DNA of 35,672 bases from Bacteroidales bacterium. Lineage in GTDB: Bacteria > Bacteroidota > Bacteroidia > Bacteroidales > UBA932. The DNA lies in NCBI GenBank assembly GCA_017555965.1, contig JAFZFH010000134.1, positions 1-35,672 of the forward strand. Direction: 5' to 3'. Below the pieces are notes generated by a model. That model made no database searches. It was given only the letters and a program-made list of their open reading frames with translations, and had not been told where the DNA came from. A program made the translations under genes and the position numbers. Shown here piece after piece: positions 1,787 to 4,100 of the stretch (position 1 is the stretch's first letter; every line of letters begins with the position of its first letter).

Positions 1787-1843
1787 AGGCAAAAATTTCT
1801 TGAAACCGCGCAGTATTTCCTTTACATGGCAGTTATAAAGTAA

Positions 1844-3529
1844 ATGGAAGAGCAGGAACTGGCATTACGATGCGCACGGAAAGACAAGGCGGCACAACGG
1901 GAACTTTATGAAGAATATCGTTCCCGGATTCTTGCTTTGTGCCGTCGCTATGCCGAGAATCCTGCAGACGCCGAGGATCTGATGCAGGATGCATTCATCA
2001 AGATATTCAAGGTCATCGGCAACTTCAAATGGACACGTCCCGGTTCGCTGTACTCATGGATGTCTCGTGTTTCAATCAACCTTGCTTTCGATACGGCCAA
2101 ACGTCGCAGGAGACTCGCAAGTCAGTTGGTGGATGTGGACAACCTTGGAGAAGACATTCCGGAGGAACCTGCCTATAATGAAACGGCATCCGTACCTTCA
2201 GAAGTGCTGAACGAGATGATAGAGTCCCTTCCGGAGGGTTATCGTACCGTATTCAGACTGTACTGCATCGACGGTCTTTCCCATCGCGAGATCGGCGAAC
2301 TTCTCGGCATCAAGGAAAAGAGTTCATCCGCCAGCCTGTACAGGGCCAGGGCAATCCTCGCTGAAGCAATAAGGCAGTACTGGCGCTATCTTGACGATGA
2401 TTCGTCACCGGAGGGATGGACGCTTATCCTCAGAAAGATGCGTAGGGCAGAAATCAATCGCAGCATCACATTGACCCTGGCAATCCTCATCCCGGTAACA
2501 TCACTGTTGCTTTGGCTGCATCCTCGTCAGAGCCAAGACTATGTCGAACCGTACATTTCAGAGGTCGATTCAGAACATCCGGCAGTCATAATTCCTCATA
2601 CGCTTCAGAGCCCTCGTGGCCTTGCTGACAGGACAACGGTCATTACGGACGCCCCATCCGACATTCAGGACAGTATCCCTGACACCTATAGTGATGCTCC
2701 AGGAATTTCAGATTCCGGTTCTGACGGACGCGACACTATCGATCCAAATGAACATGACTATAGTCCTTCCATGAATGAAACATTCATGGGAGACGACTTC
2801 CCTATCCTTCCGGAAAAGACACGCCGTTCGCGTCCAAAGGTGTCGTTCAGCCTCAGGGCGGGATCAGGATCCGGTCGCAGGAATGAAAAGGTTACACTGG
2901 AATCATCGCCATATATTGCAGCTGTGACATATATGAACACTGTTGACCCAAGCGACCGTCCTAGCTGTTTATCAAATTCCAGCAATGCAATTCCTTGGTT
3001 TGACGAATACACATCCAAGAGTGGAGAAGCGGCAGAAGATGCTGCTGAAGTTGTGGGAAATGATGCTGCAAACCATTACCTACATGACCTTCCGATAACC
3101 TTAGGACTTACCGCTCGCGTCGATCTCAACTCCAGATTCGGTGCGGAATGTGGAATCGAATACACTTACATGCATTCAAGAGTCGAAACTGAAAGTGAGA
3201 AACTTTCCCAGGACCTGCATTTCATAGGCATTCCAGTACGATTTGATACTCAGATATGGTCATGGAAAGGGTTCGACATATATGCCGGATTGGGAATAAA
3301 GGCGGAAAAGTGCATCGCCGCATCCCTTGGCCAGGTTAAGTGCGAAGAAATAAGCCTGCAATGGTCAACAGGGGCATTTGCAGGCATACAGTACAACATC
3401 GGCAGGCGTACTCATCTGTATTTCCAGCCAGACTTCTCCTACTACCTTACCAAAACCGACCTGATCACTTACCGGACTGAGAATCCGATGACATTTTCCT
3501 TGAATGCAGGAATTCGTTTTGATCTTTGA
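1844..3529 (+). CDS. ECF sigma factor fused to a transmembrane segment and outer-membrane-type barrel domain
   Basis: One unbroken 561-codon frame holds three modules. Residues ~1-178 are an ECF sigma factor: region 2 at ~21-90 (ENPADAEDLMQDAFIKIFK, then a basic stretch AKRRRR) and region 4 at ~122-178 (SLPEGYRTVFRLYCIDGLSH, REIGELLGIKEKSS, SLYRARAIL). Residues ~207-226 form one hydrophobic segment (ITLTLAILIPVTSLLLWL). A Ser/Asp/Pro-rich linker (~227-330) leads to a strand-rich domain (~331-561) with phrases such as LPITLGLTARVDL and FDIYAGLGIKAEK, resembling PorT-like outer-membrane beta-barrel proteins. In many Bacteroidota an ECF sigma gene is followed by a separate gene for a membrane protein with this barrel; here they appear fused. 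Residues 188-201 (SPEGWTLILRKMRR) resemble the usual start of that partner. There is no frameshift or stop at the junction. The 57-base gap upstream has no good TAnnTTTG box. Confidence 0.85.
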   Translation: MEEQELALRCARKDKAAQRELYEEYRSRILALCRRYAENPADAEDLMQDAFIKIFKVIGNFKWTRPGSLYSWMSRVSINLAFDTAKRRRRLASQLVDVDNLGEDIPEEPAYNETASVPSEVLNEMIESLPEGYRTVFRLYCIDGLSHREIGELLGIKEKSSSASLYRARAILAEAIRQYWRYLDDDSSPEGWTLILRKMRRAEINRSITLTLAILIPVTSLLLWLHPRQSQDYVEPYISEVDSEHPAVIIPHTLQSPRGLADRTTVITDAPSDIQDSIPDTYSDAPGISDSGSDGRDTIDPNEHDYSPSMNETFMGDDFPILPEKTRRSRPKVSFSLRAGSGSGRRNEKVTLESSPYIAAVTYMNTVDPSDRPSCLSNSSNAIPWFDEYTSKSGEAAEDAAEVVGNDAANHYLHDLPITLGLTARVDLNSRFGAECGIEYTYMHSRVETESEKLSQDLHFIGIPVRFDTQIWSWKGFDIYAGLGIKAEKCIAASLGQVKCEEISLQWSTGAFAGIQYNIGRRTHLYFQPDFSYYLTKTDLITYRTENPMTFSLNAGIRFDL

Positions 3530-3535
3530 AAGCAG

Positions 3536-3543
3536 TATATTTG
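3536..3543 (+). promoter_or_regulatory. Bacteroidetes -7 box (TATATTTG) for the 3588 lipoprotein
   Basis: TATATTTG matches TAnnTTTG exactly and lies 44 bases before the next start codon. A TTTG occurs at 3518-3521, but its 14-base spacing is shorter than the usual 19-20. The box begins just after the sigma-fusion stop. Confidence 0.5.
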
Positions 3544-3587
3544 CGTATCGCAAGTTATATAAGTAAAACACTTAAACTCCATTACTT

Positions 3588-4100
3588 ATGAAACGTACGC
3601 TTATACTGATTGCGCTCTACACATTCGCATTTGCCGCAACATCATGCAGAAAGGACGACGGAACAATCCATACGCCCGACAACGACATGTCTGTAACTGC
3701 AAAGGTCACAATAACCAAGGGTGGTTCCAATGACAAAACCGTGACATTATTCAAAGAGATGGCAGTCTACAGGGAAAGTTCCATGGAAGGCAAGTCTTGG
3801 CTCACTGCACTCAGCGGAGGCAAGATGGTTTATGATGCATTCATGCTCAGCATTTACTTTGACTGCATAGACAATCTGAATGCCGGCGATACGATAACCC
3901 CGTCAAGATGCATGTTCACCTTCTTTTATTCAAGCGACAGCAATGCAACTACACACGGGTATGAGGGAACTATTTCGCTCGCAGACAAAAGTGCAGACCA
4001 AGCCATCATACATTTTGACAAGGTAAAATTCACCTGCTCATTCGGAGAATATATCATTGACGGATACCTCAATTGCCCTCTCTACGAAAGACACCTGTGA
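3588..4100 (+). CDS. Small hypothetical lipoprotein
   Basis: This 170-residue protein begins with a lipoprotein signal peptide (MKRTLILIALYTFAFAATSC, lipidated Cys20). The mature part has short strand-like segments (MSVTAKVTITKGG, and a late FGEYIIDGYLNCPL) and no motif I recognise. It lies 58 bases after the sigma-barrel fusion on the same strand with its own likely -7 box, so it could be separately transcribed or a target or partner of that system. Its stop codon is inside the left arm of a 10-bp inverted repeat (4095-4126). No function is proposed. Confidence 0.75.
   Translation: MKRTLILIALYTFAFAATSCRKDDGTIHTPDNDMSVTAKVTITKGGSNDKTVTLFKEMAVYRESSMEGKSWLTALSGGKMVYDAFMLSIYFDCIDNLNAGDTITPSRCMFTFFYSSDSNATTHGYEGTISLADKSADQAIIHFDKVKFTCSFGEYIIDGYLNCPLYERHL

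Follow-up and report, generated by a model that had tools for sequence, protein, structure and literature searches.

An ECF sigma factor fused to a Dma-type membrane protein in Bacteroidales, with a probable origin apart from Dma3-like fusions

The fused gene described here lies in a stretch of 35,672 nucleotides of a draft Bacteroidales genome (contig JAFZFH010000134.1; the window). It likely encodes a member of the Dma family that works as an autoregulated, one-protein device for cell-surface signalling, and in which an ECF sigma factor has been fused to the dual membrane-spanning anti-sigma factor encoded downstream of it. At the level of sequence, this reading is supported by the fused frame, the order of its domains, a retained anti-sigma segment, a pair of promoter-like elements and, in the sigma tree, a position separate from that of a second type of fusion, which we call Dma3-like. 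The topology of the chain, its inhibition in cis, the signal, proteolytic release and the recognition of the promoters by the fused sigma factor are what we infer beyond that. The architecture itself is already known; new are the probable separate origin, the retained segment and the paired promoter-like elements.

Domain organisation of the fused gene

Reading the DNA of the window gave a single frame with an ATG start and 561 codons, free of internal stops (Table 1). Both sigma regions scored above the Pfam cut-offs, Sigma70_r2 at residues 21-90 (E 2.3e-14) and Sigma70_r4_2 at residues 121-170 (E 1.4e-13). The best NCBIfam model of the sigma part was the general TIGR02937 (2.1e-28), and residues 2-179 contain matches to solved ECF sigma factors. 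The protein has a single hydrophobic segment, near residues 208-225, where mean hydropathy is 2.26; every other stretch of 18 residues stayed at or below a mean of 1.5. The C-terminal part matched OMP_b-brl (residues 418-559, E 0.007) and OMP_b-brl_2 (E 0.029), both below the Pfam cut-offs. The genome also has an ordinary sigma pair (C93) whose 401-residue partner protein aligns with residues 412-561 (E 9.8e-9) and itself matches OMP_b-brl_2 above the cut-off (8.4e-11). The predicted barrel is better backed by kinship to Dma-type barrels than by Pfam, and its nearest named kin is the Dma barrel. The original prediction, made from the letters alone, had placed sigma regions 2 and 4, one hydrophobic segment and a barrel in one 561-codon frame, and Pfam, hydropathy and kinship agree with it. 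It had also called the barrel PorT-like. A barrel remains the likely reading on kinship; the PorT label was too specific, the matches being to general OMP_b-brl families.

Table 1. Coordinates of the fused gene, its parts and associated features (window positions unless a locus is named)
Feature	Position	Strand	Residues or length	Basis or remark
Fused gene (sigma, anti-sigma segment, transmembrane helix, tether, barrel)	1844..3529	+	561 aa	
ECF sigma domain	1844..2377	+	1-178	Pfam, NCBIfam TIGR02937
Cytosolic anti-sigma segment, retained	2378..2458	+	179-205	HMM of two-gene Dma N-terminal segments
Transmembrane helix	2459..2521	+	206-226	Hydropathy
Periplasmic tether (predicted), fast-changing	2522..2848	+	227-335	Identity among three fused proteins
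Outer-membrane-type barrel (predicted), C-terminal RFDL	2849..3526	+	336-561	Pfam and kinship
Promoter-like element 1	1809..1837	+		CGCAGTATTT-N13-GTTATA: -35 CGCAGT, 17-base spacer, -10 GTTATA
Promoter-like element 2	3531..3559	+		Precedes lipoprotein gene; one base after the fused gene's stop codon
Lipoprotein gene (probable)	3588..4100	+	170 aa	Lipobox-like ATSC near N terminus, by eye
Radical SAM/SPASM protein, downstream of Dma3-like fusion	L099 125-1189			
Radical SAM/SPASM protein, downstream of Dma3-like fusion	L139 3279-4340			
Methyltransferase, downstream of Dma3-like fusion	L147 3235-4014			
Methyltransferase, downstream of Dma3-like fusion	L109 2111-2890			
CotH-like protein, downstream of Dma3-like fusion	L144 2-877			

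Dma proteins form a recently described class of regulators in Bacteroidota, linked to vesicle production and glycan use (PMC13088901). Section 6 of the same source gives their plan: an anti-sigma domain at the N terminus, then a transmembrane helix, a tether that is long and disordered, and a barrel at the C terminus. The window protein matches this order with a sigma factor added in front, which we count in favour of a fused Dma. The natural reading of the fused frame is also the one proposed at the outset, a single chain that would run from RNA polymerase to the outer membrane. Barrel, topology and the docking of the anti-sigma segment are here presumed from sequence.

Two further genomes of the genus carry the same fusion, with proteins 60% (G024) and 56% (G665) identical to that of the window. 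Their sigma domains are 78% and 71% identical to the window's, respectively. Among the three fused proteins, identity is 59-74% over the 27 residues at 179-205, 38-48% in the helix, 24-27% in the tether of about 110 residues and 59-63% in the barrel part. In another locus (L046 5542-7071) we saw by eye a Dma tether with a long internal repeat, so that tether length may vary with repeat number.

Retention of the anti-sigma segment

In the two-gene relatives of the window gene, the cytosolic segment reads roughly KDW.DA.RE......P..GW..I..RMRRA. We built an HMM from 15 two-gene Dma N-terminal segments (one of 16, that of L060, was left out) and searched it against 12 fused proteins. It matched residues 187-206 of the window protein (profile positions 18-37 of 41, i-E 6.3e-5), the G024 protein at profile positions 5-37 (i-E 1.5e-7) and the G665 protein at positions 5-40 of 41 (i-E 1e-9). 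The match falls between the sigma domain and the helix, so the window gene joins a sigma gene to its Dma gene. The first residues of the segment (KDW...) are lost in the window protein or merged into the last sigma helix. The span of the match in G665 speaks against retention of just half of the segment in the window type, although the match in the window protein is shorter. In the Dma3-like fusions, sigma region 4 passes directly into the helix, and just one of the nine was listed at all by the HMM, with an i-E of 9.3. By this profile, the window type retains much of the cytosolic anti-sigma segment and the Dma3-like type shows none. The original prediction was incomplete in this respect: it overlooked the retained segment and also both promoter-like elements and the lipoprotein gene conserved downstream, which are described below.

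Promoter-like elements and neighbouring genes

The motif CGCAGTATTT followed by 13 bases and GTTATA, upstream of the sigma sequence, is common to the window-type fusions and most two-gene relatives. Separately encoded sigma genes above 200 bits provided 23 upstream regions, and from 17 of these, hand-picked by motif, we made a matrix that includes no fused gene; near-copies (L018, L115, L042, L025) and regions lacking a clean motif (L043, L118) were left out. In the window, its top site is at 1809 (27.5 bits) and its second at 3531 (19.1 bits), the third reaching 10.5. In 100 simulated windows (first-order Markov), the median of the best values was 11.8 and none went above 18.3. The G024 locus scored 27.5 bits upstream and 24.3 before the lipoprotein gene, and the G665 locus 18.2 and 27.5, the first of these being no higher than the best simulated value. 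By the matrix, an element precedes both the fused gene and the lipoprotein gene in all three window-type fusions. The pattern CGCAGTAN{14,17}GTTATA has a single match in the window's own genome, the element at 1809, and a near-identical pattern matched once in the window against 0.02 expected. With at most two mismatches there are four sites in this genome: 1809 (none), 3531, C30:38509 and C120:9312 (two each). At up to three mismatches there was no clear genome-wide excess, with 24 sites against 15 for the reversed pattern.

The site at C120:9312 lies at the 3' end of an opposite-strand gene and does not resemble a promoter, though the matrix gives it 17.4 bits. The site at C30:38509 stands ahead of a DUF4249 lipoprotein gene and beside a paralogous barrel remnant. 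That locus (L172 2811-4184, i.e. G000:C30, about 38,310-39,683) holds the C-terminal remnant of a second barrel gene, followed by the copy of the promoter element and the DUF4249 lipoprotein gene.

The -10 of the first element (region 1832-1844) stops 6 bases 5' of the ATG, and the transcript of the fused gene may thus be leaderless. Comparably short spacing between -10 and ATG was seen by eye in many relatives. Directly upstream of the fused gene are a partial gene that looks outer-membrane-receptor-like by eye (1-594) and a gene for a DUF4249 protein (596-1786). None of the top eight matrix sites of the window falls in 1-1786, the start of the first gene lying outside the window.

In four two-gene relatives (G754, G008, G675 and G699) an extra site of 15.1 to 24.8 bits precedes the Dma gene. 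Extra copies between sigma and Dma in two-gene relatives lie at L128 2699, L133 4818, L129 3764 and L130 3715. Such a copy might increase the supply of anti-sigma factor once the system is activated. In G003 and G632, whose pairs are closest to the fusions, the top four sites per locus include only the other two, and the matrix scan found no copy at the junction of sigma and Dma in the three fusions.

The lipoprotein gene has no Pfam family above cut-off and is 49-52% identical to the gene that follows the copies of G665, G024, G003, G754 and G632. Among the eight intact Dma3-like loci considered (all but L147), six carry upstream a variant motif with GCAGTC, the exceptions being L139 (GCGGTC) and L054 (the window-type motif). 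By eye, a second promoter copy starts within about 40 bases of the fused gene's stop in seven of nine loci (all except L140 and L106), and a strict pattern finds it in three of nine. Behind the downstream copy are genes for radical SAM proteins (L099, L139), methyltransferases (L147, L109) and a CotH-like protein (L144), or genes with no Pfam family (L145, L101). The fused gene of the window appears to control itself and the next gene. The pairing of motif and sigma type supports, without proving, the idea that each fused sigma factor is active and drives itself and one neighbour; from this association we infer that the fused sigma factor recognises the paired elements.

Proposed mode of action

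We propose that the sigma domain would be held at the inner membrane, where tethering and the anti-sigma segment would both inhibit it in cis. The tether would traverse the periplasm and the barrel, in the outer membrane, would be the sensor. Perturbation of the barrel or of the envelope would free the sigma domain, most likely by site-1 and then site-2 (RseP-like) proteolysis, as in IutY. The freed sigma factor would then transcribe the fused gene and, from the second copy of the promoter, the lipoprotein gene, giving positive feedback and an output. Release by regulated, probably intramembrane, proteolysis is plausible in view of IutY of Pseudomonas putida, a sigma/anti-sigma hybrid whose sigma part is released by Prc and RseP (PMC5411451). 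According to a review of 2022, IutY was the sole ECF sigma factor with characterised proteolytic activation (PMC8999054). An M50 protease scoring above the Pfam cut-off is encoded in the window's own genome, but this is weak evidence for release because all 14 control genomes encode one too.

One might speculate that the sigma domain stays attached and works at the membrane in an anchored holoenzyme, a signal shifting the docking of the anti-sigma segment with no proteolysis at all. We find this unlikely, while deserving serious thought. The retained segment would make a conformational switch possible, and the window's own genome offers few good target sites, two of which lie next to the fused gene. 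Yet, the sigma part of IutY is cut free, as described in PMC8999054 and PMC5411451, and in the Dma3-like type there is no anti-sigma segment whose docking could shift. It is somewhat less probable that the full-length chain is an intermediate, always cut, or restarted at the in-frame Met199, into a free sigma factor and a separate Dma, in which case the fusion would have no regulatory meaning. Met199 lies between the anti-sigma motif and the helix, is found in the three fused proteins and in the two-gene G003 and G632, and the fusion is patchy among the matching genomes (see below). But an internal start would lose the GW motif of the anti-sigma segment, which is conserved among the fusions, and the Dma3-like type lacks that segment altogether, its sigma factor passing straight into the helix. 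Regulated release of the sigma domain from the tethered chain is the mode of action that we prefer.

Distribution and authenticity of the fusion

We searched 400 genomes of the genus with the fused protein, scoring up to 3 candidates in each, and 27 had a match at E<=1e-46. The DNA of three of these 27 has a stop-free frame spanning query positions 1-561: the window's own genome, G024 (public contig JAFYME010000056.1) and G665. A search for the same fusion had been suggested with the original prediction, as had the possibility that two separate genes are the usual form; the first found these two further genomes, and the second was seen in all non-fused relatives read in DNA. In the near relatives, sigma and Dma genes are neighbours that overlap or lie a few to some tens of bases apart, and in some pairs they share a frame with one stop between them. 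A long open frame in a match row is no proof of fusion: the DNA has a stop between sigma and barrel in G097, G150, G120, G070, G078, G146, G029, G308, G458, G304 (two loci), G491, G551, G555, G1161 and G1272.

Six of 149 genomes of the family matched at E<=1e-46, and the window's own row was the only one in this search to cover the whole query. The DNA has separate genes in four of the other five, the fifth (G1196) being represented by its match row. A phylum sample of 247 genomes gave 12 with matches at E<=1e-40; apart from the window's own, none of the rows listed looked fused, a judgement made on match rows and not on reading DNA. All counts of fusions are lower bounds, since few candidates were scored per genome.

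Is the fused gene decaying and heading for loss? A paralogous barrel remnant with stops is found on C30 and two Dma3-like loci (G501 and G258) have short, early-ending frames. But among the three pairs of fused genes pN (0.15-0.26) is far below pS (0.52-0.73) in the sigma and barrel parts, and both promoter-like elements are retained in all three window-type fusions, which makes decay very improbable and already disfavoured. That an assembly error or a missed stop joined two genes, as one could fear from an incomplete draft (86% complete, 165 contigs), is effectively refuted by the relatives: the junction, with conserved residues, recurs in two other genomes, and a Dma3-like fusion is present in a genome of a single contig (G526). 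The same holds for the missed stop feared at 2380-2460, this region corresponding to residues 179-205 or so and being conserved across the three fusions. As the fusion recurs in two further genomes of the genus, we regard that of the window as a real gene and not as an assembly artefact.

Origins of the fusions

Intact Dma3-like fusions number at least nine genes in eight genomes (G126, G526, G556, G420 with two, G587, G564, G576 and G846), and G126 belongs to the genus of the window. A query made from an alignment of four of them matched nine of 393 sampled genomes of the order at E<=1e-60: six with intact fusions, two with early-ending frames (G501, G258) and one with a two-gene pair (G458). 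In another family, one of 118 genomes matched, which is one of 38 within the genus of that genome. The two interrupted genes, L141 (G501) and L143 (G258), measure 312 and 249 aa from stop to stop.

A quick tree of 100 sigma domains, with SH-aLRT support and no bootstrap, placed the Dma3-like fusions and the two interrupted members in one clade (SH-aLRT 100). The window sigma domain lies inside a clade of 17 rows (SH-aLRT 99), 14 of which are separately encoded genes, and the window-type fusions adjoin the two-gene pairs of G003 and G632, the five together having an SH-aLRT of 97. The three window-type fusions group together on a weak branch (SH-aLRT about 20), and from this grouping a single origin within the type is likely. 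One clade for both types of fusion was rejected with the two interrupted Dma3-like members included (p-AU 0.0124). Placing these two rows outside the group gave p 8.8e-46, an inflated value, and we use 0.0124. The fusion groups were defined after the first tree had been inspected; five long-branch rows were removed before the one-clade tests and kept in the tree. Since the window gene sits in a clade of two-gene pairs, apart from the Dma3-like type, the fusion of sigma and Dma probably arose at least twice.

Implications

Tentatively, and with almost as much reason to believe it as to doubt it, we suggest that the fused sigma-barrel is a recurrent, self-contained Bacteroidales module, flanked by two copies of its own promoter, with at least two origins, and in which tethering can replace the anti-sigma domain. 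If so, one protein would both sense at the outer membrane and act as a sigma factor, and the second promoter copy would drive an exchangeable output gene, a lipoprotein here and a radical SAM protein, methyltransferase or CotH-like protein beside the Dma3-like fusions. If one origin kept the anti-sigma segment and the other discarded it, covalent tethering alone could replace an anti-sigma domain. A comparison of the two types would be a direct test of whether tethering suffices to silence a sigma factor. A fusion sets the ratio of sigma to anti-sigma at 1:1 and removes the question of which sigma factor pairs with which Dma. The fused version also offers a single gene with a predicted promoter as reporter.

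Comparison with known systems

Several known systems share parts of this plan. ECF48, ECF52 (SCO4117) and ECF53 of Actinobacteria are likewise sigma factors with a C-terminal membrane-anchored regulatory extension; this extension is of the zinc-finger anti-sigma type, and the account of these groups in PMC8999054 mentions no barrel. In the same phylum as the window, ECF240 (with an example from Chryseobacterium) has a row in that review's table of ECF sigma factors with regulatory extensions, and is likened here by this row, which does not give the type of extension. IutY has sigma factor, transmembrane segment and anti-sigma function in one chain and responds to an outer-membrane signal. Yet, as its sources describe it, IutY has a periplasmic anti-sigma domain and a separate receptor, IutA, whereas the window chain includes its predicted barrel.

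The closest likeness is within the Dma family. Dma1/Das1 and Dma2/Das2 of Bacteroides thetaiotaomicron, as far as they are described in our source, share the anti-sigma segment and helix and the predicted tether and barrel of the window protein, and the dma2 operon also has a third gene. They differ in that sigma and anti-sigma are encoded by separate genes, where the window has one. One criterion of the family is a sigma partner of group ECF21; the best NCBIfam model of the window sigma domain is the general TIGR02937.

The original prediction knew of no described system of this form. The form is not undescribed because of Dma3 of B. thetaiotaomicron, already in print as a dual membrane-spanning anti-sigma factor with its own sigma domain (PMC13088901, Discussion). 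Besides Dma3, we found no sigma-barrel fusion in the literature covered; most subscription papers fell outside its scope, and hence this is no proof of absence. The dma3 locus, BT_2778-2779, has no adjacent sigma gene according to the same source (PMC13088901), and BT_2778 is labelled a sigma-70 family factor in PMC10434189. From this label and the shared architecture, we take the Dma3-like type to be that of Dma3 itself. As described there, Dma3 resembles the window protein in that its dual membrane-spanning anti-sigma chain begins with a sigma domain. The Dma3-like fusions (Dma3 itself was not compared by sequence) differ from the window type in belonging to another clade, in having no anti-sigma segment and, mostly, in carrying another promoter motif.
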